DNA from: Deltaproteobacteria bacterium
Lineage (GTDB): Bacteria > Desulfobacterota > Dissulfuribacteria > Dissulfuribacterales > QOAL01
Assembly (NCBI GenBank): GCA_027028245.1
Contig: JALVJO010000033.1
Location: 1 to 41,458, forward strand
Reading direction: 5' to 3'
DNA length: 41,458 nucleotides
Part shown: positions 13,415 through 34,143 of the stretch, in pieces
Layout: each line of letters opens with the position of its first letter
Position numbering within the stretch: position 1 is the first letter of the stretch
The notes under the pieces: generated by a model
The model's database searches: none
What the model was told of the DNA's origin: nothing
Seen by the model: only the letters and a program-made list of their open reading frames with translations
Program-made: the position numbers and the translations under genes

Positions 13415-15934
13415 ATGTCCCTTGACCGTCTGTTGAGATACTGGGCCTTTCAATTTTTCTCTCCTGAAACGGTCCTCAAGGAGAAATACAAGTCTTTTAA
13501 AAAGATCCTGCAGGCAGACAGGCAGGCCCATCTTCATATGGCCAGACTGGAGGAAATATTTTACCACAGAAAGCAGGTCGATTGTTCCAGGATAGATTCC
13601 ATCTATCACGATCTGTCTGATGCCGTGGCTGAGATGGTCTCTGGGCTGCAGGAACTTGCTCCTGGAAAATTCAGCAATCTGAAGGATTATTTCAAAAAAA
13701 TTGATTTTTACTGCCGGCTGCTCCTTGCACCAATGATCTTCGACACGTCACGGCCTTATGTATTCCTATCCGGGATGGCTGGCGGAGATGAAAATCTTTT
13801 GGGGGGCAAGGGACAGAACCTGAACCTGCTTAAAAACAAACTCGGTCTGCCTGTCCCGGATTTCTTCATAGTTACTACGCATGCCTTCTTTTATTTCCTG
13901 GAGTCCAACAAGGCAACCAGTGATATAGAAACCATACTTTCCCAAGTAAACATTCAAAAACAGGAATCCCTGGAATCCAGTTCTTCCAACATATTGAAAC
14001 TGCTGCAAAAGGCCCGGCTGCCTGAAGATCTTGGCGACTCCATACTGAAAGCTGTGGAACTGGTATTCCAGGGAAGGGCAAATCTCCTGCTCTCTGTCAG
14101 GAGCAGCGCCGTTGCAGAGGACAGAGAAAGTTCCTTTGCCGGGCAATATCTGACTCTGCTGAAAGTGGAGCCCGGTGATATCTTATCTGCCTATCAAAGG
14201 GTCATTAAAAGTAAATACAATCCAAGTCCTCTTTACTACAGGATTAAAAAGGGCTATTGCGACATGGAAACTCCTATGGCAGTCATAGTCCAGGAGATGA
14301 TAGAAACAAAAGCCGCCGGGGTAGCCTATTCACGAAATCCTGACAAACGGCTTGAAAACTTTATGACCATTTACGCAGTCCTGGGCCCGGGTGAACTCGT
14401 AGTTGACGGTACTGAAACACCTGAAATTATAAACCTGGACAGGGAAACAGGTGAACCTGTCACCAACCTCTATTACCAGTCTGGTGATGCCGGGAATCAC
14501 AAAAATATCCTGCCTGAAAGCCATGTACATATGCTGGGAGAATGGCTTTCAAGGCTTGAAGAATATTTCAGCCATCCGGTAGACATAGAATGGTGCCTCA
14601 CGTCTTCTGGCAGGCTCAAGATCCTTCAGGCACGGGCACTGACAGCCCCTGACATCCATGAGGCTGGTAAACCCGATCTGGATTTCAAAGGCCTTGAGGT
14701 TATATACCAAGGCGGTATTGCCGCATCCCCTGGATGCGGTTCAGGCCCGGTATTCAGGGTCTCACGGCACGACGATCTCACCCTTGTCCCTCCAGGTGCA
14801 GTTATTGTGGCCGAACATGCAACCCCTGATTTCGTGGAAGTCTTTGAACAGATCTCTGCTCTTGTGACTGAAAAAGGAAGTGCAGCAAGCCACTGCGCCT
14901 CTGTGGCCAGGGAACTGGGCGTACCCTATCTTTGTGATGTTGCCGGAGCCATGGACAATCTTGAAAAGGACATGGATATAACTGTAGATGCAACCAACTC
15001 CCGAATATTTAGAGGAATAGCCAGGCAGTGCAAAAAAAGAACTAAAAGGCGGCCGGCACAGGATTTACCCGCAACTCCCCTGTTCAACAAGCTTGCACAG
15101 CTTGTAAAGATGGTGTCCAAACTCTCCCTTCTGGATGCAGAAAGCAGGCATTTCCGACCGGAAAGCTGCCGCTCCATTCATGATATAATAAGATTCGTGC
15201 ATGAATGCGCCATGAGAGAGATGTTTTTTATCGGCAGCAAGGGGATGCACCCCAGGCGGGGTGCCAGGAAACTGGTGGGTGAATTCCCCATGACATTTTA
15301 CGTCCTGGACGTGGGAGGCGGACTCAGGAATGATGTCAAAGGGGATGAGATATCAATCGAGGCCGTCAGGTCAAGACCAATGAAGGCATTCTGGAAAGGA
15401 TTGACAGATCCTTCAGTCAGATGGTCGGATACTGAGCATTTTGCATGGGAAGAGTTTGATTCCATAGTCCTTGCAGGCGGAATTGCAGACAAGGATGCAG
15501 CTTCACTTTCAAGCTATGCGGTTCTGGCCCATGACTACATGAACCTCAGCATCCGCTTCGGCTATCACTTTGTCCAAATTGACGCCCTTGCCACAGAGGA
15601 CCTCCACAGCAACTATATTACATTCAGGTTTTCCGGAGGCGGCGGAAGGCCGGAGGGAAAACTCTTGCGGGCCTCATTCATATCCGGAGTGTTGAGACAT
15701 CTTGGCTTCAAGACCGAAAGCACCGGTGAGCTGGTGGATGCAAGGATAAAACCTGCCTCCCAGAAGGATATCCTGAGGGTGCTGGTGGATATAGGCCGCC
15801 TGGTGGGGGCAACACGTCTCATGGACATGTATCTTGACGAAGATTCGGATATTTCCGGGCTCATTCAGGATTTTCTGCAGGGCAGATCCGATTTTTCCAG
15901 GAACTATGATGGGGAATCATCCGATGAAAAGTAA
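13415..15934 (+). CDS. PEP/pyruvate-binding (PEP-synthase-like) protein with a non-canonical C-terminus
   Basis: 839 residues. After about 120 N-terminal residues of unassigned helical sequence comes the ATP-grasp-like nucleotide/pyruvate-binding domain (about 125-420): G-x-x-L-x-G-G-K-G-x-N-L, SVRSSAVAEDRESSFAGQY, AAGVAYSRNP and VDIEWC. The phosphohistidine domain follows, with the catalytic-type His493 in ASHCASVARELGVPYLCDV. Beyond about residue 560 the PEP-binding TIM barrel of true PEP synthase or PPDK is not recognisable; instead there is a domain I do not recognise (YVLDVGGGL..AGGIADKD..). It may carry out phosphoryl transfer to a different acceptor, or be regulatory. It overlaps the next gene by 11 nt. 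Confidence 0.7.
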   Translation: MSLDRLLRYWAFQFFSPETVLKEKYKSFKKILQADRQAHLHMARLEEIFYHRKQVDCSRIDSIYHDLSDAVAEMVSGLQELAPGKFSNLKDYFKKIDFYCRLLLAPMIFDTSRPYVFLSGMAGGDENLLGGKGQNLNLLKNKLGLPVPDFFIVTTHAFFYFLESNKATSDIETILSQVNIQKQESLESSSSNILKLLQKARLPEDLGDSILKAVELVFQGRANLLLSVRSSAVAEDRESSFAGQYLTLLKVEPGDILSAYQRVIKSKYNPSPLYYRIKKGYCDMETPMAVIVQEMIETKAAGVAYSRNPDKRLENFMTIYAVLGPGELVVDGTETPEIINLDRETGEPVTNLYYQSGDAGNHKNILPESHVHMLGEWLSRLEEYFSHPVDIEWCLTSSGRLKILQARALTAPDIHEAGKPDLDFKGLEVIYQGGIAASPGCGSGPVFRVSRHDDLTLVPPGAVIVAEHATPDFVEVFEQISALVTEKGSAASHCASVARELGVPYLCDVAGAMDNLEKDMDITVDATNSRIFRGIARQCKKRTKRRPAQDLPATPLFNKLAQLVKMVSKLSLLDAESRHFRPESCRSIHDIIRFVHECAMREMFFIGSKGMHPRRGARKLVGEFPMTFYVLDVGGGLRNDVKGDEISIEAVRSRPMKAFWKGLTDPSVRWSDTEHFAWEEFDSIVLAGGIADKDAASLSSYAVLAHDYMNLSIRFGYHFVQIDALATEDLHSNYITFRFSGGGGRPEGKLLRASFISGVLRHLGFKTESTGELVDARIKPASQKDILRVLVDIGRLVGATRLMDMYLDEDSDISGLIQDFLQGRSDFSRNYDGESSDEK

Positions 15935-17015
15935 ATACGAACTTACCTGGATCACTCCTAACCTTGCTGTTGGCTACGCTCCCATGTCCTATGAGGACCT
16001 GGAAGTGATAAAAAAGGCCGGCATTACTGCTATTGTCAATCTTTGCGGGGAATACTGCGACCTGCACGAGATAGAGGAAAAGGCGGGCTTTGACGTTTAT
16101 TATCTGCCCATTCCCGATGAACATGCCCCTGACCTTGAAGCAATGGAACGGGCATTGGAATGGCTGGATGAGGCCATATTTCTCGGTAAAAAAGTACTCG
16201 TCCACTGTAAGCACGGCATAGGCCGGACAGGAACCTTTGTAACCGCATATCTAATCAGGAAGGGGCTTGGCTACAAGGAAGCCAGCCGGAAAATGAAGGA
16301 TACCAGGTCAAATCCAAGCTGCTGGAGCCAGTGGCGGCTTCTTAAGAAATACGAAAAACATGAAAAGCCCTTGAAAATAAGGGAACCTAGCCTTGAAAGC
16401 AGGGGCGGAGTAGATCTTTCAGTATATTTTTCCAAGTATGAAAAGATACTCGAGACCCTGGACCTTAAAACCAGAGACAAAACCGTTTCAAAGTGCGGCA
16501 AGGAGGAGACAGCCTGCTGCAGGGAGTACTTCGAGCTGTATTTCCTGGAAGCGCTCTATCTTCACACCCTGGTAAACCAGCAACTCAGGCTGAGGGCCAG
16601 AAAACAACTCATAGAACGGGCCGATACTCTGCTCAAAAGGGAAAGAGAATTAAAGGCCGGGCTTCCTGCTGATTCGGACGATTATCTTGCCGCTGTTACA
16701 GCCCTTTATTCGGAAAAGGGCCTGGTATGCCCGCTGCTCGACAATGAAAGGTGCATGCTGTTTGATTTCCGCCCAGCAAGATGCAGGACATACAAAACAG
16801 GCATTGACAACAACTACCTGGAAAAAATTTATGATCTCATTTTTGACATTTCCCGCATGCTCTTTTTTGCCCTTTCAGGCAAATTCTTGAAGCGCGGAAA
16901 GCTGCAATTTTCGTGTGCAGAAGTCATTTCAGGAAGGTTTATGGAAACCTATTTCAGATATGCATCTAAAATGGACCTCAAAGGCAGCGACCCGGATATC
17001 CTATCCGTCACATGA
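15924..17015 (+). CDS. Dual-specificity protein phosphatase fused to a YkgJ-like cysteine cluster
   Basis: 363 residues. The N-terminal half is a compact dual-specificity (cysteine-based) phosphatase: VHCKHGIGRTG holds nucleophile Cys95 and phosphate-binding Arg101, and the upstream general-acid Asp lies in PIPDEHAPDL. From about residue 190 there is a different module with spaced cysteines (C-C-R-E-Y-F; then C-P-L-L-D-N-E-R-C-M-L-F-D-F-R-P-A-R-C-R-T-Y), the YkgJ signature also seen at 1791-2699. The fusion suggests a metal- or redox-linked phosphatase. The ATG at 15924 was chosen because it gives the typical MKSKYELTWITPNLAVG start; ATGs at 15906 and 15909 are possible. ATGA overlap with the next gene. 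Confidence 0.75.
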   Translation: MKSKYELTWITPNLAVGYAPMSYEDLEVIKKAGITAIVNLCGEYCDLHEIEEKAGFDVYYLPIPDEHAPDLEAMERALEWLDEAIFLGKKVLVHCKHGIGRTGTFVTAYLIRKGLGYKEASRKMKDTRSNPSCWSQWRLLKKYEKHEKPLKIREPSLESRGGVDLSVYFSKYEKILETLDLKTRDKTVSKCGKEETACCREYFELYFLEALYLHTLVNQQLRLRARKQLIERADTLLKRERELKAGLPADSDDYLAAVTALYSEKGLVCPLLDNERCMLFDFRPARCRTYKTGIDNNYLEKIYDLIFDISRMLFFALSGKFLKRGKLQFSCAEVISGRFMETYFRYASKMDLKGSDPDILSVT

Positions 17016-18160
17016 GCACCAGCGGAACTGAAAGCCGGTTTGACATATTTGCCCTTTGTCCCCCGGGACTGGAAGACCTCCTTTCAAGGGAACTAAAGTC
17101 TCTTGGCATTAATGGGAAAAAAACTAGGGGAGGCGTGGAATTTCATGGTGATCTGTCTGTTCTTTACTCTGTGAATCTCTGGTCCAGGATTGCCGGCAGG
17201 ATACTGGTAAGAATCGGAAATTTCAGGCTCCTTTCCCTGAAAAAGGCCGAGGAAAGATTTTCCAGGTACCCCTGGGAGCTTTATCTTCCCAAGGAAAGAG
17301 AAATAAGAATCAGGGCGGCTGCCCATAGATCCAGGATTTACCATTCGGGTGCCCTGGCCCAGAGGCTGGTTCAGGGGATCTCGAAAAGATTGGGAAGACG
17401 CATCCGCCAGGTTTCTGAAAAGTCTGGAGAAGACAAGCCGCTGGTGTTCGTTCGCATGTTCAAAGACCGGTGCCAGATCAGCATGGACAGTTCCGGCCGC
17501 CATCTCCATAAGAGGGGGCTCAAGAAACATACTGTCAGGGCACCTTTCAGAGAAAATCTCGCAGCTGCCATGCTCCTGGCCTCGGGATGGGACAGGCACT
17601 CAAATCTTCTGGACCCTTTTTGCGGTTCCGGAACCATCGTCATGGAAGCAGTCCTGATGGCCTCCATGATTCCGCCTGGCAGAAGACGGACCTTTTCGTT
17701 CATGAAATGGAAAAATTTCCAGCCGGAAACCTGGCATCAGCTCCTCAGCCTAGCAGACAAGCTGCGCACCAGGCCCCTGGGAAAGATTCTGGGTATTGAC
17801 CGGGACCGTGCGGCCGCTGAAACGGCCCTGTTCAATCTGGAACAGTCAGGATTAATATCATCGGCCGAAATACTCCATGCAGATTTCTTCGATCTTCAAA
17901 AGGCGGTGATGGCTGAGCCTGGTTTCATCGTCACAAATCCCCCATACGGCCGAAGGCTAAGGGAAAATTACAGTCTTTCCAGGCTCTATGCCCTCTTTGG
18001 AGAAAACATAAAGAGATATTATCCCCGCTGGCATATTACCATGGTCTGCCCTGCAGACGGGTCATACCTGAAACGAGCCCTCGGCCTTGCCCTGAAACCG
18101 TTTTGCCGGTTCAGAAACGGCGGTATAAGGGTAGAACTACTGTCCAGCCCTGTCCTTTGA
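17012..18160 (+). CDS. THUMP-domain 23S rRNA (guanine-N2) methyltransferase, RlmL-N type
   Basis: A 382-residue SAM-dependent RNA methyltransferase. The N-terminal THUMP region (about 50-160) would bind RNA. The catalytic domain has motif I DPFCGSGTIVMEA (about 200-212), motif II around GIDRD, and the amino-methylation motif NPPYG (about 309-313). This is the architecture of the N-terminal half of E. coli RlmL (m2G2445) and of YpsC-like proteins; the RlmK half is absent. It overlaps the phosphatase gene by 4 nt and ends the three-gene set beginning at 13415. The exact target base cannot be read from the sequence. Confidence 0.87.
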   Translation: MSTSGTESRFDIFALCPPGLEDLLSRELKSLGINGKKTRGGVEFHGDLSVLYSVNLWSRIAGRILVRIGNFRLLSLKKAEERFSRYPWELYLPKEREIRIRAAAHRSRIYHSGALAQRLVQGISKRLGRRIRQVSEKSGEDKPLVFVRMFKDRCQISMDSSGRHLHKRGLKKHTVRAPFRENLAAAMLLASGWDRHSNLLDPFCGSGTIVMEAVLMASMIPPGRRRTFSFMKWKNFQPETWHQLLSLADKLRTRPLGKILGIDRDRAAAETALFNLEQSGLISSAEILHADFFDLQKAVMAEPGFIVTNPPYGRRLRENYSLSRLYALFGENIKRYYPRWHITMVCPADGSYLKRALGLALKPFCRFRNGGIRVELLSSPVL

Positions 18161-19724: not shown

Positions 19725-20084
19725 ATGACGATTAAATCTGCGACATTAAGGATGCCCCAAAGACGGGTTTACTCCCCGTCTAGCCGTAGAAGACGGAACA
19801 CCAGGCAGCTCCTATCCATTCCCGCAGGTTTTTCGCTAAAGGCTGCAGCATCAATTTTCATATTATCCCTGTTCCTGGGCCTGTCCTTTGTAACCAGCTA
19901 CAAGATTCACGGCCTTGCACAGGATATCAAGATGCTTGAAAAACATTACTCCACTGCACAGGAGGAGAATAAACAGCTGGCCCATCAATTCTCTTCCATG
20001 GCAAACAAAAAAAAATTGGCAAAAATTGGCAAAAAACTCGGTCTTTACAAACCAGGAGAAGACCAGATCATAACGCTTCGATAG
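19725..20084 (+). CDS. ftsL: Cell division protein FtsL
   Basis: A 119-residue bitopic protein: a basic cytoplasmic tail rich in R (1-38), one transmembrane helix (about 43-62) and a periplasmic coiled-coil segment (about 64-95) ending in KLAKIGKKLGLYKPGEDQII, the usual FtsL C-terminal pattern. In other bacteria FtsL forms a complex with FtsB and FtsQ and activates FtsW-FtsI. Here the following FtsI-like protein lacks catalytic residues, so its partner set may differ. A ribosome site GGAGGT precedes the ATG. Confidence 0.85.
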   Translation: MTIKSATLRMPQRRVYSPSSRRRRNTRQLLSIPAGFSLKAAASIFILSLFLGLSFVTSYKIHGLAQDIKMLEKHYSTAQEENKQLAHQFSSMANKKKLAKIGKKLGLYKPGEDQIITLR

Positions 20085-20146
20085 ATAGCAAGAACTCAGT
20101 ATAAAATTTGTCGGGGGCAGGAAGTCTGAAAAGAGGCGATAGGGAG

Positions 20147-21745
20147 TTGACTAAGAGGATCTTCATCCGCATCCTATATGTTTTGACCAGTCTGTTTTTC
20201 TGCGGACTGGTGTTTTCAGGATGTTTTGGAGAGAGGGTCCCTGAAGGAGACAAAACGGAGGCCGGTCTCCGTCCTGCCCCTGGCAGTCTTGTTTCTGAAG
20301 CCGCCTGCAGCAAGAGGGTTCTCCAAAGGCTTCCCATATCCGACAGGAGCGGCTCCCTCCTTGTAGTCTCAAGGATCACTCCGGACGGCTCGGTTGAGAG
20401 ATATCACCCCTACGGCAGTCTGGCCGTGCCTTTGCTGGGATATCTTGATGAATACGGACGAGGCCTTGACGGAATAGAGTATGCCTATGACAAGTTCCTG
20501 CTTTCCAGTGAAGACACCATAAAATCCGGACAGATAACGCCATTAAGCCTGACAATAGACAGAAAGATTCAGGCACAGTCCGAGCAGAATCTCAGGTGGC
20601 AGATGAAGAGGCTCAAGGCCGCCAAGGGCAGCCAGATCATCATGGATCTGGCCAGTGGCCACGTAATCGCCATGGCCAGCCTGTCAGCCGGTTCCAAGGG
20701 TAAAATAACCGGGAACCTGACTGAAAATTTTGCCCTGGAAGACGGAATTGATCCATGGGCGCTGGCAGTTAATCTGGCATGGCTGAACAAGCAACAGGAA
20801 GAACTCCTGGAGTCAAGGCAGCAGGAAGATGGCACAGAGACCAGCGAACCGACTGCAGCAGTTGACAAAGGCGGGCCGGCATCCTGGCACTGGCTGACCA
20901 TTGACGAAAGGGCCAAGCTCTGGACAAGGCTTTCTGAGGATAATATTGATCAATTATCCTTTGACAACGCCCTTCTCCGTCAGCTGATCGCCCTGGGGCT
21001 GGGCCAGCCCACCGGGATAGATCTTCCTGGAGAAAGGCAGGGGGCCTTGCCGATTTCCCTTTCAGACAACGTAACCTCAGTAATAAGTTCGGGCATGAAC
21101 GCCTCGCCCATTCAGCTGCTTAATGCATTTTCTGCAATCATCAAGGGAGGCAGGCTGCCTAGACCGGTCATAAGTGCTCAACACTCACAAACACAGCCTG
21201 AAAAAAACCAGCCCGGGGAAAAACAGGATATACCCCTGGATGAAGAGGCGCTCAAGCAGTTTATCCGCACCATAGGGGATAATCACGGTCCTTCCATAGC
21301 GTCTGTAACCAAAAAAACAGATAAAAATCAGCCCAGCTACGAAATCCTGGGAATGGGTTTCTGGCCGGCGAAATCTCCAAAAATAGGTTATATTACTGTA
21401 CTTGGTGATGCCAAGGTAGACGCCAGCAGGAGGCGGGGCACCCTGGGAAGAACCGCGCTCATTGCCAGGGAAGCAGCCTCTTTGTCCAGCAGCCTGATGT
21501 TCGCTGGCAGAGGCTCTGAAAACACTGCGGTATCTTACAACCTCCAGGGACATTATCATGGACAACCAGAACCATGGATAATGCCCGATCTGAGGGGACG
21601 ATCCCTGAGAAGTGCCGTCGAGGCCTTGGATGGACTGGGGCTGCTTATTCGCATAAAGGGTGCAGGTACAGTGAAAAGTCAGTATCCCAGACCCGGCTCC
21701 AGGATTAAACGGGGCATCGAGTGCGTTATAACCTGCAAGGGCTGA
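20147..21745 (+). CDS. FtsI-like protein without transpeptidase active site; PASTA domain; possible lipoprotein
   Basis: 532 residues in the position of ftsI. It retains the class B PBP frame: ISDRSGSLL; a much shortened pedestal; GIEYAYDKFL; LTIDRKIQ; GSQIIMDLASGHVIAMAS; SPIQLLNAFSAI; PKIGYITVL; and a C-terminal PASTA domain (from about 21577). The site of the nucleophile motif reads E-D-G-I-D-P-W (20738-20758) where the family has E-P-G-S-T-x-K, so Ser becomes Ile and Lys becomes Trp. No SxN motif is found, and KTGT is replaced by VTKKTDKN (about 21302-21325). The N-terminus ends L-V-F-S-G-C, a possible lipobox. TTG at 20147 has AAGAGG about 10 nt upstream; TTG at 20108 is an alternative. 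The frame is intact, so this is more likely a pseudoenzyme than a pseudogene. Confidence 0.82.
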   Translation: MTKRIFIRILYVLTSLFFCGLVFSGCFGERVPEGDKTEAGLRPAPGSLVSEAACSKRVLQRLPISDRSGSLLVVSRITPDGSVERYHPYGSLAVPLLGYLDEYGRGLDGIEYAYDKFLLSSEDTIKSGQITPLSLTIDRKIQAQSEQNLRWQMKRLKAAKGSQIIMDLASGHVIAMASLSAGSKGKITGNLTENFALEDGIDPWALAVNLAWLNKQQEELLESRQQEDGTETSEPTAAVDKGGPASWHWLTIDERAKLWTRLSEDNIDQLSFDNALLRQLIALGLGQPTGIDLPGERQGALPISLSDNVTSVISSGMNASPIQLLNAFSAIIKGGRLPRPVISAQHSQTQPEKNQPGEKQDIPLDEEALKQFIRTIGDNHGPSIASVTKKTDKNQPSYEILGMGFWPAKSPKIGYITVLGDAKVDASRRRGTLGRTALIAREAASLSSSLMFAGRGSENTAVSYNLQGHYHGQPEPWIMPDLRGRSLRSAVEALDGLGLLIRIKGAGTVKSQYPRPGSRIKRGIECVITCKG

Positions 21746-21807: not shown

Positions 21808-21866
21808 CGAGGAATGTTTTCTGCAGTTTACTATTAACATAATGCTTGAAAAACGAGCAGATAGAA

Positions 21867-24812
21867 ATGCCCAAGAGCCTGTCAGACCTGTTAAGACATA
21901 CTGAACATATCTCCTTAGTTAAGGGCAGCATAAAACACTGCCTAATCGATGACATCTGCCTTGATTCCAGAAAGGCCGGCCCCGGCAGTCTGTTTTTTGC
22001 CCTTCCCGGCACGGATAGGGATGGTACTGATTTTATCTCTCAGGCACTGAAAAAGGGGGCAGTGGCTGTAGTAGTACCCGAATACTTTGCGGAACGAGCT
22101 GAAACGCAGGTACCTGAAGGAACTGTACTGCTTTCTTCAGATGAGCCCCGCACTGCCCTGGGCCAGATTGCTGATGCATTCTTTAATCATCCCAGTCGTG
22201 CAGTAAAGGTGATAGGCATTACCGGCACCAACGGAAAAACTACCTGTTCATTTCTTCTGGAAAGGATTCTCCTGTCATCAGGTTCAAAATACAGCCTGAC
22301 AGGCACAATTATCCAGAAAACCGGCACCAGGTCCAACACTTCCTCCATTACCACGCCGGATGTTGTTTCATTTCAGCGCTTTCTTGCAGAAACTGCCAGG
22401 GAAGAGGCAGAATATGCCCTTGTGGAAGTGTCCTCCCACGGACTCATTCAGGCAAGGGTCGAAGGCTGTCGGTTCGAGGCGGCCATTTTCACCAATCTCA
22501 GTCACGATCACCTGGACTACCACGGTGACATGGAAGAATATTTCCAGGCAAAACGGCTCCTTTTTACCAGGTATAAACCCCGGTTGGCTGTAATCAACAT
22601 AGATGACAAATGGGGACGGAAACTTTGGGATGAATACCAGGGACCCAAGGTATCATACGGCTTTTCAGAAAAATGCATGGTTGCCCCTGCAAAATATGAG
22701 ATCAGTGCCTCGGGAATCGAGGCTGAAATCAAGCTTGGCAACAGACATCTTGCCATAAACTCACCCCTTATGGGCAGTCACAATCTCTACAACATACTGG
22801 CGGCAGCTGCAGCGGCAGACGGCCTGGGTATTGGGCTGAACCATATCAGGGAGGGCATTGAAAGTCTAAGAAGCGTTCCTGGGCGGCTTGAAAAAATCAG
22901 TTCTTATGATATCACCGCCCTGGTGGACTATGCCCACACACCACATGCCCTCCAAAACGTGCTTGAAGGCCTGAGAAGCCTCAAGACCGGAAGAGTTATA
23001 ACCGTTATCGGCTGCGGCGGGGACAGAGATCGCACCAAGCGGCCTGAAATGGCCAAAATAGCTGCCGAGCTTTCGGATTTTACCATTTTTACCTCTGACA
23101 ATCCCAGGACAGAATCAGCTGAAGCCATTCTGGAAGACATGCTTTCAGGTGTCAGCCGGGATCTCATGGCCAAGGTAGAAGTTGTCAAGGAAAGAAGACA
23201 AGCCATTTTCAGGGCCGTCTCACTGGCCCGGCCGAAAGATATGGTGCTTGTAGCCGGTAAGGGACACGAAGACTATCAGATTATCGGCAAGACAAAATTT
23301 CCATTTGATGACAGAAAGGTACTGAAAGAAGCATTAGAGACAAGACAAAACCCGGGTCGGCAGCACACCTGCAAAGAAAGGTTGAATATCACCATTGGAA
23401 AACTGGAAAAGATACTGTCTGGAAAGCTTTTGTCAGGCAGATCTGACACCATGTTTTCATCAGTATGTACAGACAGCCGTACAATAAAACCTGGACAACT
23501 GTTCTGGGCACTCAGGGGTGAAAACTTTGACGGTCATGCCTTCGTCCAGGCTAGTGCCGCAAGGAAGGCAGCAGGTGCCGTGGTGGAATACAAGCCGGAA
23601 GGCCTGCCCGGGGAATTTCCCATCATTCAAGTAAGAGACAGCCTTGAAAGTCTCGGAGACTTTGCGGCATGGTACAAAAGGGCCATAGGGGCAAATGTAT
23701 TTGCCATTACGGGAAGCTGCGGAAAAACCACCACCAAGGAACTGGTACTGTCGGTGCTCAAAACCTCATTTAATGCTTCCGGCACCAGAGGCAATTTCAA
23801 CAACCTCATAGGCCTGCCACTTACCATTCTTTCCCTGGAACCAGGAACCCAGTGGGCTGTGCTTGAAATGGGCACAAACCTTCCTGGTGAAATTGACAGG
23901 CTTTGCAAGATAGCCGGGCCCAAGGCAGGACTTATCACCTGCATCCGTCCTGTTCACCTGGAAGGTCTTGGAACCCTGGAAAATATTGCACTGGAAAAGA
24001 CGACATTGTTCAGGAGCCTGCCGGAGGAAGGAACAGCGGTTGTAAACCTTGATGATCCTATGCTCACCACACATATTTCAGCCATAAAATGCAGAAGGCT
24101 CACCGGCTATACTACCAGGGTTATTAAAAGGGATAAAAGGTTTGAAAAACTCGTGGTGCTCAATGACCTGGTGCAGGGGCCTCAAGGCCTTGAAGTCCGC
24201 CTTGACATCTGCGGGGAGCCTGTAACCATCAAGTCCAGGCTCTTCGGCAGGATCAATTCAGTGAATATACTTGCTGCAGCTGCAGCAGGTGCTGCCCTGG
24301 GCATAGATACAAGGCTGATAAAAGAGGGAATAGAGAATGTGAAAGCACCCAGCGGCAGGATGCACACCAGGAACCTTCCAGGGGGATGGCTCCTCATGGA
24401 TGATTCCTATAATGCCAATCCGTCGTCGGTCAAAGCTGCCATGGAGGCCATCTCGGAAATTGCTCTGGACAAAAAGAAGACCTTCGTCCTGGGAGACATG
24501 CTGGAACTCGGACCCAGGGCCCGGGAATTTCACTGGCAGACAGGCCAGCAGGCCGCTGCATGCCGCCCAGATCTCCTTCTAGCCGTGGGCAACCTTGCCG
24601 AGCACCTGGCAGACGGTGCACTGGCTGCCGACTTGCCCAAAAGCCGCATATTTACTTTCGAATCTGCCGACAGCCTTCTGAAGTGGATGGCCCAAGATCC
24701 TGCAGGATTTTTCAACGGCAGCCGCAGGGCAGTCCTGGTAAAGGCCTCCCGCGGAATAGGCCTGGAAAAGGTAGTCTCTTTCATAGAAAAGAGACTGGAA
24801 GGGGGAAAATAG
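21867..24812 (+). CDS. murE-murF: MurE-MurF fusion: UDP-MurNAc-tripeptide ligase joined to the D-Ala-D-Ala ligase
   Basis: A single 981-residue frame encoding two consecutive Mur ligases. MurE part (1 to about 488): GITGTNGKTT (about 117-126), VEVSSHGL, TNLSHDHLDYHG, and D-N-P-R (about 411-414), the meso-diaminopimelate-selecting motif. After a linker of about 20 residues (..QNPGRQHTCKERL..) the MurF part (about 508-981) carries AITGSCGKTTTKE (from about 613), LEMGTNLPGEI and DDSYNANPSS. The protein adds meso-Dap and then D-Ala-D-Ala to UDP-MurNAc-dipeptide in the cytoplasm. ATG at 21867 fits the MurE N-terminus; TTG at 21846 is an alternative. The gene abuts mraY directly. MurE-MurF fusions are known in Bordetella. 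Confidence 0.95.
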   Translation: MPKSLSDLLRHTEHISLVKGSIKHCLIDDICLDSRKAGPGSLFFALPGTDRDGTDFISQALKKGAVAVVVPEYFAERAETQVPEGTVLLSSDEPRTALGQIADAFFNHPSRAVKVIGITGTNGKTTCSFLLERILLSSGSKYSLTGTIIQKTGTRSNTSSITTPDVVSFQRFLAETAREEAEYALVEVSSHGLIQARVEGCRFEAAIFTNLSHDHLDYHGDMEEYFQAKRLLFTRYKPRLAVINIDDKWGRKLWDEYQGPKVSYGFSEKCMVAPAKYEISASGIEAEIKLGNRHLAINSPLMGSHNLYNILAAAAAADGLGIGLNHIREGIESLRSVPGRLEKISSYDITALVDYAHTPHALQNVLEGLRSLKTGRVITVIGCGGDRDRTKRPEMAKIAAELSDFTIFTSDNPRTESAEAILEDMLSGVSRDLMAKVEVVKERRQAIFRAVSLARPKDMVLVAGKGHEDYQIIGKTKFPFDDRKVLKEALETRQNPGRQHTCKERLNITIGKLEKILSGKLLSGRSDTMFSSVCTDSRTIKPGQLFWALRGENFDGHAFVQASAARKAAGAVVEYKPEGLPGEFPIIQVRDSLESLGDFAAWYKRAIGANVFAITGSCGKTTTKELVLSVLKTSFNASGTRGNFNNLIGLPLTILSLEPGTQWAVLEMGTNLPGEIDRLCKIAGPKAGLITCIRPVHLEGLGTLENIALEKTTLFRSLPEEGTAVVNLDDPMLTTHISAIKCRRLTGYTTRVIKRDKRFEKLVVLNDLVQGPQGLEVRLDICGEPVTIKSRLFGRINSVNILAAAAAGAALGIDTRLIKEGIENVKAPSGRMHTRNLPGGWLLMDDSYNANPSSVKAAMEAISEIALDKKKTFVLGDMLELGPRAREFHWQTGQQAAACRPDLLLAVGNLAEHLADGALAADLPKSRIFTFESADSLLKWMAQDPAGFFNGSRRAVLVKASRGIGLEKVVSFIEKRLEGGK

Positions 24813-25899: not shown

Positions 25900-27321
25900 A
25901 TGACATTAAAGGGAAAAAAGATCGCAGTCCTCGGAACTGGAGAAGCAGGAAGATCTGCTGCAAGATACCTTCACAGCCGGGGTGCCATAATAACTTGCTG
26001 CGACCGGCTGGAACCAGAAGATTGGGAAAAGGATTTCAGATCCTGGTGCGAGCAGAACAAGATACAGGCAATGGGAGAAGATCATCTTTCTGAAACAGAT
26101 ATTTCGGGCTTTGATCTGGCTGTGGCAAGCCCGGGAATTCCGCCTGGAAGCACCATGCCGGCACTGTTCAAAACACATGAAATAGACATAATAGGGGAAC
26201 TGGCCCTGGCAGCATCCCTTTGGCCCGGAAGACTCCTGGGCATTACCGGGACAAACGGCAAGACAACAACCACTGAGCTTACCTCCCATATCCTTACCTG
26301 TTCCGGTATTTCCAACATAAAGGCCGGTAATATCTCCCCCCCGCTTTTCGAACTTCTGCCCGGAAGCAGCAAGGCTGAAACGGCTGTTCTTGAAATCAGC
26401 AGCTTCCAGTTGGAGTATTTCCCTCAGAAATGGCCCAGAGGGCTGAAATGCCCGCGCTTTTCCGCAGCTGTACTCTTGAACCTGGCACCCGACCATCTCG
26501 ATCGGCACGGTTCCATGGAAGAATATGCAAGGAGCAAGAGCAGACTCTTCCACTTCCAGAAGGACCGTGATGTGGCAGTCCTGGGGAAAGGGACAGAGAA
26601 TATCATGGGCAATATTCCAGGAACTGTCTTTTCTCTGGATCTGGATAGGAGGAAAAAAACCGGTGCATTCTGGGACAGAGAAAGGTCCCTTCTAAAAATA
26701 GACTTACCGGGAAGATTTGAAGAGGAATACGATGTTTCCAAGTGGAAGCCTTGGGGCAGGCACAACATGGAAAATCTGGCTGCAGCCGTCATATCTGCCA
26801 GGATTTCAGGTGCTGAACCAGAAATGATACAAAAGGCCCTGGCAACCTTCAGGGCCCCTGATTACAGGCTGCAAAAATCAGCCGAACTCAAGGGAATAAC
26901 CTTTATCAACGATTCCAAGGCAACGAACATTTCAGCCCTTGTTGCTGCACTGGAATCCATAGAAGGAGAAATTACCCTTATTGCAGGAGGAAGGGGCAAG
27001 GGAGAAGACTTCGATATGCTAGCTTCGTTTCTGAAAAAGAGAAACGGCAGCCCCAAAGGCGGCCGTCTCAAAAATGCAATTCTGATTGGAGAAGAGGCCC
27101 AAAGGCTAAAGGAGGTCCTTGTCCCTTTTGTAAAGGAATGCAGGCTGGTGTCCGGGAAAGGAGGCAGTGATGCAATGGAACAGGCAGTAAAAATGGCAGC
27201 ATCAACGGCCCGTCCCGGATCCACAGTGCTTCTGTCCCCTGCATGTGCCAGTTTCGACATGTTCAAAAGCTACAAGGAAAGAGGCAGGGCATTCGACCAG
27301 GCGCTCAGCAAGTTAAAATGA
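25900..27321 (+). CDS. murD: UDP-MurNAc-L-alanine:D-glutamate ligase MurD
   Basis: A 473-residue cytoplasmic Mur ligase adding D-Glu. A Rossmann-like N-terminus (VLGTGEAGRSAARYL), the P-loop GITGTNGKTTTTEL, LEISSFQLEYF, NLAPDHLDRHGSMEEYA, FINDSKATNISA and the C-terminal AGGRGKGEDF are all present. It is somewhat long (usual about 440-450), with the extra residues in acidic and basic loops. Its stop overlaps the murG start by 4 nt, so the ftsW gene that usually separates the two is absent. Confidence 0.95.
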   Translation: MTLKGKKIAVLGTGEAGRSAARYLHSRGAIITCCDRLEPEDWEKDFRSWCEQNKIQAMGEDHLSETDISGFDLAVASPGIPPGSTMPALFKTHEIDIIGELALAASLWPGRLLGITGTNGKTTTTELTSHILTCSGISNIKAGNISPPLFELLPGSSKAETAVLEISSFQLEYFPQKWPRGLKCPRFSAAVLLNLAPDHLDRHGSMEEYARSKSRLFHFQKDRDVAVLGKGTENIMGNIPGTVFSLDLDRRKKTGAFWDRERSLLKIDLPGRFEEEYDVSKWKPWGRHNMENLAAAVISARISGAEPEMIQKALATFRAPDYRLQKSAELKGITFINDSKATNISALVAALESIEGEITLIAGGRGKGEDFDMLASFLKKRNGSPKGGRLKNAILIGEEAQRLKEVLVPFVKECRLVSGKGGSDAMEQAVKMAASTARPGSTVLLSPACASFDMFKSYKERGRAFDQALSKLK

Positions 27322-29931: not shown

Positions 29932-30859
29932 AGACCTTAAACGCATAAACAATCTCTATGCGGCAGAGGATGTATGCCTCGGTTGCCATACTACGTTTAA
30001 AATAGGCGGTAAGGCCAGGTTGTTTCTTGTACCATTTTCCGTCTCTGCACTGGAACAGGGCCTAAAGGTTCTCAAACGTGCGGGGATCCCGTTTCGGATA
30101 CTTGGAAACGGCAGCAATCTGCTTGTATCAGACCGGGGAATAAGTGCTGTAATAAGCCTTTCAGGTCTGTCCCGTGTTCAATCGTGCAACGGCTCTCTCA
30201 CCGTCCAGGCCGGGATGACAATATCCAGTCTTCTCAAATGGTGTCTGGAAAACGGCTATGGCGGCCTGGAAGAGCTTGCAGGCATTCCCGGTTCTCTGGG
30301 GGGTGCCCTTTACATGAACGCCGGGGCATGCGGCAGTGAATTTTCAAACTTCGTAGAGGAAGTCCTTCTGACCGGGCACCAGGGCAGCTCGTGGTTCAAG
30401 CCGGGAGGAGAAACCTTTTCATACAGAAAATCCAGCCTTCCACCCGGCTTCGTGATATCAGCCCTTAAACTCCGAACGGCTGAAAACCCTGGACCTGAGG
30501 ATTCGAGACAGCAGGCCCTTTTTTCTTGTCCTACGAGGGATTCGGTAGAAAAAATCAAGCGCATAATGCAAAAACGATTGAACAGCCAGCCGCTGGGCAA
30601 GCCCAGCGCAGGATGCGTATTCAAGAATCCCAAGGACAAGCCTGCATGGAAATTGATCACGGAAAGCGGTCTGCAGGGTTATGCCAACGGCGATGCACAA
30701 GTTTCAGCAAAACACGCTAATTTCATCGTAAACCGGGGAAAGGCTGATTTTACCCAGGTAAAGGATCTTTTGGCAATAATAAAGGACAGGGTTCAGGAAC
30801 AAACAGGTATCCTGCTCAAGGAGGAACTGGTAATCTGGGAAGATGATATCATCCACTAG
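29912..30859 (+). CDS. murB: UDP-N-acetylenolpyruvoylglucosamine reductase MurB
   Basis: A 315-residue FAD-dependent, NADPH-using reductase forming UDP-MurNAc. FAD-binding motifs are LGNGSNLLV and GIPGSLGGALYMNAGA; further conserved blocks are FSYRKSS, PSAGCVFKNP (with the catalytic serine or cysteine region) and AKHANFIVNRG. The overall plan resembles type II MurB (B. subtilis-like). The ATG at 29912 overlaps the 3' end of murC by 20 nt; the upstream GTG/ATG choices add only a few residues. No ddl gene follows, unlike many proteobacterial clusters. Confidence 0.95.
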   Translation: MQQLLFKDLKRINNLYAAEDVCLGCHTTFKIGGKARLFLVPFSVSALEQGLKVLKRAGIPFRILGNGSNLLVSDRGISAVISLSGLSRVQSCNGSLTVQAGMTISSLLKWCLENGYGGLEELAGIPGSLGGALYMNAGACGSEFSNFVEEVLLTGHQGSSWFKPGGETFSYRKSSLPPGFVISALKLRTAENPGPEDSRQQALFSCPTRDSVEKIKRIMQKRLNSQPLGKPSAGCVFKNPKDKPAWKLITESGLQGYANGDAQVSAKHANFIVNRGKADFTQVKDLLAIIKDRVQEQTGILLKEELVIWEDDIIH

Positions 30860-31688
30860 GAAAAACAGGCGGCTCAACAAGAGGTCGGCAAAGAAAAAGA
30901 GATTGGACTGGACCAAGGCATCCAGGATAATTCTTTTTGTCGTGATGCTGACGGCCTTATCCGGCGGGGTTGCAGGTACTGTTTACGGTATAAAAAAATG
31001 GATGAGCACTTGCTCCTATTTTTTTGTTTCATCCATAGAGGTTCATGGTGAAAAACGGTTGACCAGAAAGGAAATCATAGATTTGAGCGGCATCCGTGTA
31101 GGCGACAATATCTTTTCACTGGATCTTAAGAAGATTGCCGGAAAGATTTCCAGCCAGCCCTGGATAAGATTTGCCCACGTGGAAAGACGACTTCCAGACG
31201 CCGTGGTCATCCGGGTAGAGGAAAGACAGCCTGTTGCCCTTGCAAGAATCGGCGAAAGGCTCTTCATGGTGGACAGGGACGGAACATGTTTCAAATATCT
31301 GCATGACCCCAAGGGCTTTTCTGCTCCAATAATCACCGGGATCGACACCAAAGCAAGTGCCGCGGCTGAAAAAGAGACCACACCGGCCGTAAACCGCTCC
31401 AGAATGAGTGATGCCCTAAGGATAATCAGCATGTCTCAAAAGGGCGTCAGGGCCCTTGGATATAATAATATCAGCCAGATAGACTTTCCGGATGACCAGA
31501 CCGTAGTAATCTACACCGCTGACAAGGCCGTTCCATTTTACATAAACAGGGACGGGCTCAAAAAGCAGTTTTACAGGGCTGAAAAAATTCTGTTTCAATT
31601 GTATAATTCGGGACAGTATCCAAAGGTGGTAAGCGTGAACGTAGGTTACGGCAAAGACATGGCCCTGGCCAGACTCAAAAAGAAGTGA
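30843..31688 (+). CDS. ftsQ: Cell division protein FtsQ/DivIB
   Basis: A 281-residue bitopic protein: a very basic cytoplasmic tail (1-28), one transmembrane helix (about 29-50), a POTRA domain with the V-x-G..R-L-T-x-x-E-I pattern (IEVHGEKRLTRKEIIDLSGI, about 60-80), then the beta domain with VERRLPDAVVIRVEERQPVA. It links cytoplasmic and periplasmic division proteins by binding FtsL-FtsB. It overlaps murB by 17 nt and is followed by ftsA three bases on. Confidence 0.93.
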   Translation: MISSTRKNRRLNKRSAKKKRLDWTKASRIILFVVMLTALSGGVAGTVYGIKKWMSTCSYFFVSSIEVHGEKRLTRKEIIDLSGIRVGDNIFSLDLKKIAGKISSQPWIRFAHVERRLPDAVVIRVEERQPVALARIGERLFMVDRDGTCFKYLHDPKGFSAPIITGIDTKASAAAEKETTPAVNRSRMSDALRIISMSQKGVRALGYNNISQIDFPDDQTVVIYTADKAVPFYINRDGLKKQFYRAEKILFQLYNSGQYPKVVSVNVGYGKDMALARLKKK

Positions 31689-31691
31689 TGC

Positions 31692-32921
31692 ATGGTTGAG
31701 CGCACCTGTGACATAGTAGTCGGCCTTGATATTGGAACCACCAAGATCTGCACCGTAGTAGGAGAGCTCTCAGAAGACAGCGTTGAGATCATCGGCGTTG
31801 GCAGCCACCCCTCAGTCGGACTCAGGAAAGGGGTAGTTGTCAATATCGACAGCACTGTAAATTCCATCAGGAGTGCTGTAGAGGAAGCAGAACTCATGGC
31901 CGGCTGCGAAATCACCTCTGCCTTTATAGGTATTGCCGGCAGTCACATAAAGGGATTCAACAGTCACGGAGTTATTGCCGTAAAGGGCGAAGAAGTCTCC
32001 GAAGAAGACGTGGAAAGGGTAATAGATGCAGCCAGGGCTGTTGCCATCCCCATGGACAGGGAAATAATACACATCCTGCCCCAGGAATACATAGTGGATG
32101 ATCAGGGCGGGATCCTGGACCCTGTTGGCATGATGGGGGTCCGGCTGGAAGCCAAGGTGCATATTGTGACCGCAGCCGTAACAGCAGCCCAGAACCTGGT
32201 CAAATGCGCAAACCGGGCCGGGCTTGACGTGGATGACATAGTACTTCAGCCCCTGGCCTCGGCGCACGCAGTGCTGACCGAGGAAGAAAAGGAAATAGGA
32301 GTTGCCCTGATCGACTTCGGCGGTGGCACTACTGATCTGGCCCTGCTAAGTGAAGGTGCCATAAAACATACTGCAGTACTGGGACTTGGGGGAAATAATC
32401 TCACCTACGATATCTCTGTCGGTCTCAGGACTCCCATGAATGACGCTGAAAAGATAAAGATACGTCACGGCACCTGCTTGGTTTCCATGGTCCAGCGGGA
32501 CGAAATGATAGAGGTACCCAGTGTAGGGGGAAGAAAACCGAGGCAGCTTTCCAGGCACATCCTGGCCGAGATCCTGGAACCAAGGATAGAAGAGATATTT
32601 TCACTCATAGATCAGGAAATCCAGCGTACAAGACTGAAGGAGTTGCTTGCATCAGGGGTGGTCATTACTGGAGGGTCTGCGGTTCTTCCCGGAGTCTGCG
32701 AGATGGCAGACCAGATCTTTCAGCTTCCCGCCAGGATAGGTTTTCCAAGAAACATCTCGGGGCTGGTAGATGTAGTAGACAACCCCATGTATTCAACAGC
32801 AGTGGGCCTGGTACTTCACGGTTTTCAGGATCGTCCCAGAAATGCCGGGCATTTCAAGATGAAGGGAGACAACCTTCTGCAAAAGGTCACGGGAAGAATG
32901 AAATCGTGGTTTGGTCTTTAA
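31692..32921 (+). CDS. ftsA: Cell division protein FtsA
   Basis: A 409-residue actin-like membrane tether of FtsZ. Nucleotide-binding signatures are [32 protein letters not shown] and [13 protein letters not shown]; the 1C domain lies between residues about 85 and 165. The C-terminus [16 protein letters not shown] is the expected amphipathic membrane-targeting helix. Normal length, directly upstream of ftsZ. Confidence 0.97.
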
Positions 32922-32946
32922 ACAGGAGAAAAGGGGAGAGGATCTC

Positions 32947-34143
32947 ATGCCGCTAGAGTTTGTAGATAATGGTTTGTCAGCGAGGATAAAGGTCATTGGT
33001 GTTGGCGGCGGAGGGGGAAACGCCATCAATAACATGATTGCCTCCGAGCTCATGGGAGTTGAGTTCATAGCTGCAAACACGGATTCCCAGGCCCTGGAGA
33101 TGTCCAGGGCAGGAATCAAGGTGCAGCTGGGCCGCAACCTTACAAAGGGTCTTGGCGCAGGCGCCAAGCCGGAAGTTGGAAGAGAGGCTGCTGAAGAAAG
33201 TGCCGATGAGATAAGACAGGTCCTTGAAGGCAGTGACATGGTTTTTGTTACCGCTGGAATGGGTGGAGGTACAGGCACAGGCGCAGCCCCCATAATAGCT
33301 GAAATAAGCAAGGAACTCGGCGCTCTCACTGTTGCTGTTGTTACAAGGCCCTTCGGCTTTGAAGGAAAAAGGAGAGGCCGCCAGGCAGACGAGGGCATCG
33401 AACGGCTCAAGGAGGTGGTGGATACCATCATCACCATTCCCAATGACCGCCTGAGATCACTGGCACAGCCCAACACCCCGTTCCTGGAGATGTTCAAGAA
33501 GGCTGACGAAGTGCTTTATTATGCAGTGCGGGGCATCTCGGATTTAATAGTGGTCCAGGGCTATGTGAACGTGGATTTTGCAGACGTTCGCACCGTGATG
33601 GCAGAGATGGGAATGGCCCTTATGGGAACCGGCATGGCAGGCGGGGAAAGAAGGGCCCTGGAGGCCGTGCAGATGGCCATAGCCAATCCTCTCCTGGAAG
33701 ATGTATCCATCAGCGGAGCCAGGGGGATACTCATGAACATAACTGCCAGTACCGCTTCACTGAGCATGGATGAGGTAGATCAGGCCTCTACCCTGATCTA
33801 CGAAGAGGCCCATGAAGACGCAAATATTATCTGGGGAACGGTCTTCGACGATTCAATGGAAGATGAAATCCGTGTAACTGTCATTGCCACGGGAATCGGC
33901 AGGGAAAAACATGTCTCTCCAAGGGATGAGCAAATAGTAACCCACATCGATTCTGCCAGGAAAAGAAGGCTTGCAGCAGATTCATCAGAGGATGAAACCG
34001 GCTCGGTCCCTGCTCCAGATATCCAGGATCAAGGCCTGCCGGAGGAAAGGGAACGGGTAGCAGGCCAGGAATTTTCCGGTCTCCATTCCCTGGATACAGA
34101 AGAACTGGAAATTCCCGCCTTCATGAGGAAAAAGGCCGATTAG
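32947..34143 (+). CDS. ftsZ: Cell division protein FtsZ
   Basis: A 398-residue tubulin-like GTPase forming the Z ring. Conserved blocks are [23 protein letters not shown], the tubulin signature [12 protein letters not shown], and IPNDRL; the C-terminal [10 protein letters not shown] is the conserved tail that binds FtsA. The ATG at 32947 follows GGGGAGAGG; an upstream start at 32911 within ftsA is not needed. The variable linker is short and acidic (about 325-385). Last gene of the dcw run, followed by a probable terminator. Confidence 0.98.

Follow-up and report, generated by a model that had tools for sequence, protein, structure and literature searches.

An FtsI homologue without a transpeptidase active site in the FtsW-less Dissulfuribacterales

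The order Dissulfuribacterales keeps, at the ftsI position of its dcw cluster, a protein that genome comparison identifies as a pseudoenzyme: its catalytic residues have been lost across the clade, and the rest of the protein is under purifying selection. Across the phylum Desulfobacterota, as read from gene content and motifs, loss of FtsW and inactivation of FtsI go together. We give a probability of roughly 0.6 to the reading in which this pseudo-FtsI is a retained, non-enzymatic divisome adaptor and the septum is built by a class A PBP, by RodA-PBP2, or by both. Descriptions of septal wall synthesis have treated FtsW and FtsI as universally essential. The order offers a natural, clade-wide test of that essentiality, in which FtsZ, FtsA, FtsQ and an FtsL-like protein are retained, FtsW is gone and the FtsI gene is kept without its chemistry.

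Results

The pseudo-FtsI gene lies within the window, by which we mean the whole stretch of 41,458 nucleotides that was analysed (Table 1; residues are counted from 20147). A preliminary description, made from the letters of the window, had reported an intact frame of more than 530 codons, and the frame is indeed open for 532 codons from 20147, or for 545 from a possible alternative in-frame start at 20108. It had also described a well-kept class B PBP scaffold, and profile comparisons agree. A profile built from 24 members of the order matches P. aeruginosa FtsI (E 4e-53, profile positions 23-491) and also S. aureus PBP1 (7o49), in a match that runs well beyond the transpeptidase domain, and hhalign of the order profile against canonical outgroup FtsI gives a probability of 100 and an E value of 1.2e-75 over 530 columns. 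The top PDB profile matches of pseudo-FtsI are FtsI/PBP3. In Pfam searches, the PF00905 match of the window protein is restricted to positions 123-215 of a transpeptidase model that has 299, and is accompanied by PASTA; among the 24 members, PF00905 is detected in 23, PASTA in 16 and PBP_dimer in 13. The scaffold positions invariant in these 24 proteins are D66, R85, G98, G109, E111, L149, G161, G171, G286, G299, G404, P407, P411 and Y415. The place of the gene after ftsL and before murE, also pointed out earlier, is seen in the ftsL/DivIC-like gene upstream and the murE-murF fusion downstream. Homology over the pedestal and transpeptidase scaffold, together with this position, identifies pseudo-FtsI as a true FtsI homologue by descent. 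An AlphaFold prediction made from two sequences only reached a pLDDT of 31 and was left unused, and a contig scan for relatives yielded a single close one, besides a distant Bacillus PBP. As for the neighbouring fusion, murE-murF gives a single continuous match in Dissulfurimicrobium hydrothermale as well, and separate matches in another genome (G022).

Table 1. Positions in the window of pseudo-FtsI, its parts and the surrounding dcw features.
Feature	Position	Strand	Basis or remark
ftsL/DivIC-like gene	19725..20084	+	PF04977
Pseudo-FtsI, class B PBP homologue without transpeptidase active site	20147..21745	+	532 aa from TTG at 20147
N-terminal hydrophobic segment ending in lipobox-like F-S-G-C (Cys26)	20147..20224	+	start codon uncertain
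Pedestal remnant (R-x-P-I-x-D-R-S-G ... R-Y-H-P-Y-G ... G-R-G-L-D-G-I-E)	20327..20500	+	alignment
Former nucleophile motif, P203-W204-A205-L206-A207-V208 versus P-G-S-x-x-K	20753..20770	+	alignment
Former S-x-N site, W259-T260-R261	20921..20929	+	alignment
Former KTG strand region, mostly deleted, no K-[ST]-G	21290..21325	+	alignment
PASTA domain, residues 479-523	21581..21715	+	PF03793, E 1.2e-10
murE-murF fusion	21846..24812		one 988-codon ORF
Empty ftsW slot	27318..27321	+	murD stop (27321) overlaps probable murG start (27318)
ftsQ, ftsA, ftsZ (remaining divisome genes retained)	30843..34143	+	

When the window protein is aligned with 49 relatives, the serine of SxxK is replaced by alanine and the lysine by valine. 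The preliminary description was right that this motif is lost, but its reading of the site as I-D-P-W falls four residues too early. The absence of S-x-N, which it had also claimed, is confirmed, and the column of the serine holds tryptophan in 34 of the 42 order members. For KTG, both the absence and the region were correctly given; T-K-K-T can be given no reliable equivalence to it, since the strand is a gap in the MAFFT alignment for all 42 order relatives. A lone K-S-G at residues 126-128 was considered as a KTG equivalent and rejected, as it sits in the pedestal, N-terminal to the transpeptidase domain. The pedestal is shortened, as had been noticed: a head subdomain of about 70 residues is absent from the family of the window protein (f1) and present in other families of the alignment. 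Judged by these losses, pseudo-FtsI is almost certainly dead as a transpeptidase. It is very improbable that a relocated serine and lysine still make it an active enzyme: the scaffold is well kept, as such a relocation would want, but the KTG strand is missing, and neither serine nor lysine, cysteine or threonine is found among the invariant residues of the 24 order members.

Relatives were found in 55 of the 60 genomes searched. All seven catalytic positions are lost in every one of the 42 order orthologues, which come from eleven families (serine and lysine of SxxK and serine and asparagine of SxN are absent, with a gap at KTG), and all are kept in 8/8 outgroups from the phylum. Because the loss is common to all 42 order relatives, recent decay or chance can be excluded. 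The comparison of orthologues proposed in the preliminary description also included a measure of selection, and dN/dS of pseudo-FtsI is 0.14-0.28 in ten pairs of relatives, somewhat above that of the adjacent mur genes (0.09-0.21 for the murE part; mraW gives 0.04-0.19). The reading frame is open in every orthologue examined. An assembly or sequencing error, or a pseudogene confined to one draft genome, has a practically negligible chance of explaining these data. The window does come from a draft of 205 contigs, but 42 relatives agree, and the closed genome of D. hydrothermale Sh68 (one contig, 2,025,450 bases), a Gram-negative short rod of the same order (PMC8780430), contains the same dead FtsI and no FtsW. 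Outside the order, the closed genome of Desulfurivibrio alkaliphilus AHT2 (3,097,763 bases) shares the FtsW-less state and the inactive FtsI, and an error of draft assembly is ruled out by these closed genomes. In one member of the order (G027, family f10; 99% complete), neither mraW nor pseudo-FtsI was found, which points either to a gap in the assembly or to true loss of the beginning of the dcw cluster.

The dcw cluster of the window reads mraZ, mraW, ftsL, ftsI, murEF, mraY, murD, murG, murC, murB, ftsQ, ftsA, ftsZ, and in D. hydrothermale murG likewise follows murD directly, with no ftsW between them. Genome-wide searches with PF01098 found no FtsW in any of 46 order genomes; exactly one SEDS gene is present in 45 of them, and none in the remaining one, which is fragmented. 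In a SEDS tree with outgroup references, defined as FtsW when flanked by murD/murG and as RodA when flanked by mrdA, the 30 sampled order proteins all group with RodA, and all but one of them adjoin mrdA, which encodes PBP2. Since MreC is present in 45 of the 46 genomes, the elongation machine of the order looks whole. Upstream of mraZ, the window also carries an ORF (15834-17015) that resembles a dual-specificity/tyrosine phosphatase (HCKHGIGRTG) and has a cysteine-containing C-terminal part.

We then consider the phylum, where most of 246 Desulfobacterota genomes at least 95% complete have two SEDS genes and several families have one. Among the genomes tested, the sole SEDS protein is RodA in f25, f28, f34, f37, f57, f66, f68, f78 and f90, and FtsW in f29, f33, f85 and the f39 genome. 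We read 96 dcw loci and scored the pairing of FtsW and FtsI where the locus reached murG. This gave 55 loci with FtsW and a catalytic FtsI, 26 with neither and three seemingly discordant. Catalytic FtsI had been called by regular expression, and reading the sequences corrected all three misleading calls. The FtsW-containing G168 (f70) has K-T-S-T for K-T-G-T with SxxK and SSN intact; in G055 the ORF ends early and is followed by a second matching ORF, so that it looks frameshifted; and in G074 the motif match is due to chance in a remnant of 340 aa. Counted by family, 52 have both FtsW and catalytic FtsI, nine plus the order have neither, and none is discordant after manual checks. In the FtsW-less families, FtsI is of full length with dead motifs in f25, f28, f66 and f78, about 450 aa long in f68, and reduced to remnants of 250-390 aa, recognisable by profile comparison, in f34, f37 and f57. 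The nucleophile serine is found in none of the 16 larger FtsI proteins from FtsW-less lineages. Two genomes of these families have peculiarities of their own. G245 (f57) combines a 344-aa FtsI remnant and a dcw cluster without FtsW with a second SEDS gene outside dcw; in G059 (f25, a single contig) the only SEDS gene is split (137697-138110 and 138113-138757), by a frameshift in rodA or by a sequencing error.

In a tree built from 2,795 columns of seven dcw enzymes, the FtsW-less state falls at three positions: the order with f25, f37, f66, f68, f78 and f90 (support 0.999); f34 with f57; and f28, sister to f20 (support 1.0), a family that has both proteins. Three changes are likewise required on a second tree. 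AU tests reject neither a single FtsW-less clade (p 0.31) nor a union of the first group with f28 (p 0.19). Two or three separate loss events are likely on these trees; with three, a sign test is unable to reach significance, and the unrejected single ancestral event weakens any argument from repeated coincidence. The co-loss pattern is independent of the number of events; its statistical weight is what depends on it.

The search for other class B PBPs, also proposed in the preliminary description, found PBP2 and no second catalytic FtsI in the genome of the window, where the other PBPs are PBP2 (638 aa), one class A PBP of the PBP1A type (693 aa) and a small PBP (418 aa); the motifs of all three are intact. 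A catalytic FtsI encoded elsewhere in that genome is thereby rejected. One class A PBP is encoded in nearly every order genome tested. The small PBP (contig 97 of the genome of the window, 16288-17142) has SxxK, SxN and KTG, matches no Pfam pedestal domain and is confined to some families of the order; it is a candidate extra transpeptidase. As a general replacement of FtsI it was rejected, as whole families are without it; family f5, and G027 and G034 of f10, have little beyond PBP2 and the class A PBP.

Discussion

The explanation that we prefer begins with FtsW. Its loss would have come first and left the chemistry of FtsI without a partner that makes strands; the active site would then have decayed, and the protein would have been kept as a periplasmic adaptor of the divisome. 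The N-terminal anchor, the pedestal remnant, the transpeptidase scaffold and the PASTA domain could connect partners of the FtsL/FtsQ type, and septal peptidoglycan, with the real builders of the septum. The likeliest builders are the sole class A PBP, on the model of C. difficile, either alone or together with RodA-PBP2, because no other synthases that polymerise strands were found. FtsI has a known non-catalytic role, the activation of FtsW. With FtsW absent, the retained role cannot be that one, and what needs replacement is the whole FtsW-FtsI synthase and not the cross-linking half alone. The preliminary description had spoken of a maintained, non-enzymatic divisome component, in which the structural role of FtsI is separated from its chemistry. 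Both maintenance and lack of chemistry are upheld by the clade-wide loss and the dN/dS values, and residence at the divisome is a probable addition to them; a non-catalytic function survives scrutiny, and FtsW activation as its content does not, no FtsW having been found in the genome. The further implication, that another transpeptidase works at the septum, is well founded on the clade-wide loss and the lack of a second catalytic FtsI.

It seems to us quite probable that pseudo-FtsI is a selected component of the divisome or septum rather than a residue. The opposite view, of an unimportant leftover that is decaying and is held for a time by its operon position or by PASTA, draws on the graded shrinkage in f68, f37, f34 and f57 and on the drift of the head subdomain and of the features of the transmembrane anchor. 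We find it improbable in view of the dN/dS values and the open frames, and because the protein has lasted through eleven families of the order and nine outside it. Even so, the adaptor has its counterpoint in the same shrunken proteins of f34, f37 and f57 and in PASTA, which is retained in most FtsW-less families but missing in several of the order; any retained function is thus either small or non-uniform. The dN/dS values, somewhat above those of the mur genes next to it, also speak against the adaptor.

As to who builds the septum, we give about even chances that its main synthase is the class A PBP. Alternatively, RodA-PBP2 might serve both elongation and division, and pseudo-FtsI would be a dock that brings RodA-PBP2, and not the class A PBP, to midcell. 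RodA-PBP2 is the sole SEDS-bPBP pair of the order and is intact; yet its mre-mrdA-rodA neighbourhood resembles an ordinary elongation operon, and in C. difficile the one essential pair of RodA and PBP2 serves elongation, division being the task of a class A PBP (PMC10693644). We hold this alternative to be possible, if rather doubtful.

A more specific role can be imagined for families f1 and f2, where a lipid may have taken over as the anchor. LpoA and LpoB are outer-membrane lipoproteins that activate class A PBPs, and the dead FtsI of f1/f2 could be a lipoprotein that acts likewise on the sole class A PBP at the septum, in a history where FtsW loss and FtsI inactivation occurred together two or three times. 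By a loose pattern, 23 of the 27 f1/f2 proteins have a Gly-Cys pair where the hydrophobic segment ends, and none from the other order families or the outgroups has one; the residue after this cysteine is Phe or Leu and not Asp, which by the E. coli rule makes outer-membrane placement possible; and f1 lacks the head with which a SEDS partner would make contact. On the other side, the strict lipoprotein pattern is found in only 16 of the 27, start codons are uncertain, and the other families would be left unexplained, so that we consider this proposal unlikely. If it is true, a former divisome enzyme now regulates a division machine that works without FtsW.

The adaptor reading has wider consequences. 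A non-catalytic function of FtsI would here be set apart from the activation of FtsW as well as from the protein's own chemistry, and beta-lactams directed at PBP3 are predicted to be without a target in pseudo-FtsI. D. hydrothermale and D. alkaliphilus are cultivated, and could be the organisms in which to seek the real septal synthase. A literature search, with most subscription papers outside its reach, returned no report of a naturally inactive FtsI or of its coupling to FtsW loss; we regard the novelty of this coupled, clade-wide change as provisional.

Compared with the FtsI/PBP3 of P. aeruginosa and E. coli, pseudo-FtsI shares gene position and the homology of pedestal and transpeptidase scaffold, but it is without SxxK, SxN and KTG, its pedestal is shortened and its genome has no FtsW partner. 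In E. coli, the signal for septal synthesis runs from FtsN through FtsQLB and FtsI to FtsW, via the pedestal of FtsI and loop 4 of FtsW (PMC8078798). Division can be separated from transpeptidation in other bacteria too: a catalytically inactive PBP2B supports division in B. subtilis because PBP3 can cross-link (PMC8078798), and the regulatory functions of S. aureus PBP1 persist without activity, its important PASTA domains binding peptidoglycan and contributing to the contact with DivIB (PMC9426605). Those are, however, engineered alleles in cells that have FtsW, whereas the inactivation described here is natural, clade-wide and accompanied by FtsW loss. If pseudo-FtsI acts as LpoA and LpoB do in f1/f2, the likeness would lie in the mode of action, and no relation of sequence is claimed. 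In the same phylum, a 2021 inventory tabulates ftsW, ftsN and zipA as missing from four Desulfobulbaceae genomes, cable bacteria included (PMC7873302). The absence of ftsW is thus shared; in the parts available to us, that inventory takes FtsI as the active septal synthase and mentions neither the loss of its motifs nor a link with that of ftsW. The closest parallel is C. difficile, in which septation is driven by a class A PBP without a canonical FtsW/FtsI pair (PMC10693644). Both are FtsZ-containing rods with RodA-PBP2, a class A PBP and no FtsW/FtsI for division, a likeness with which the order is compatible by gene content. They differ in what became of the pair: in C. difficile the dcw-encoded SpoVD and SpoVE persist as sporulation enzymes, whereas in the order FtsW has been lost outright and FtsI kept without its active site.
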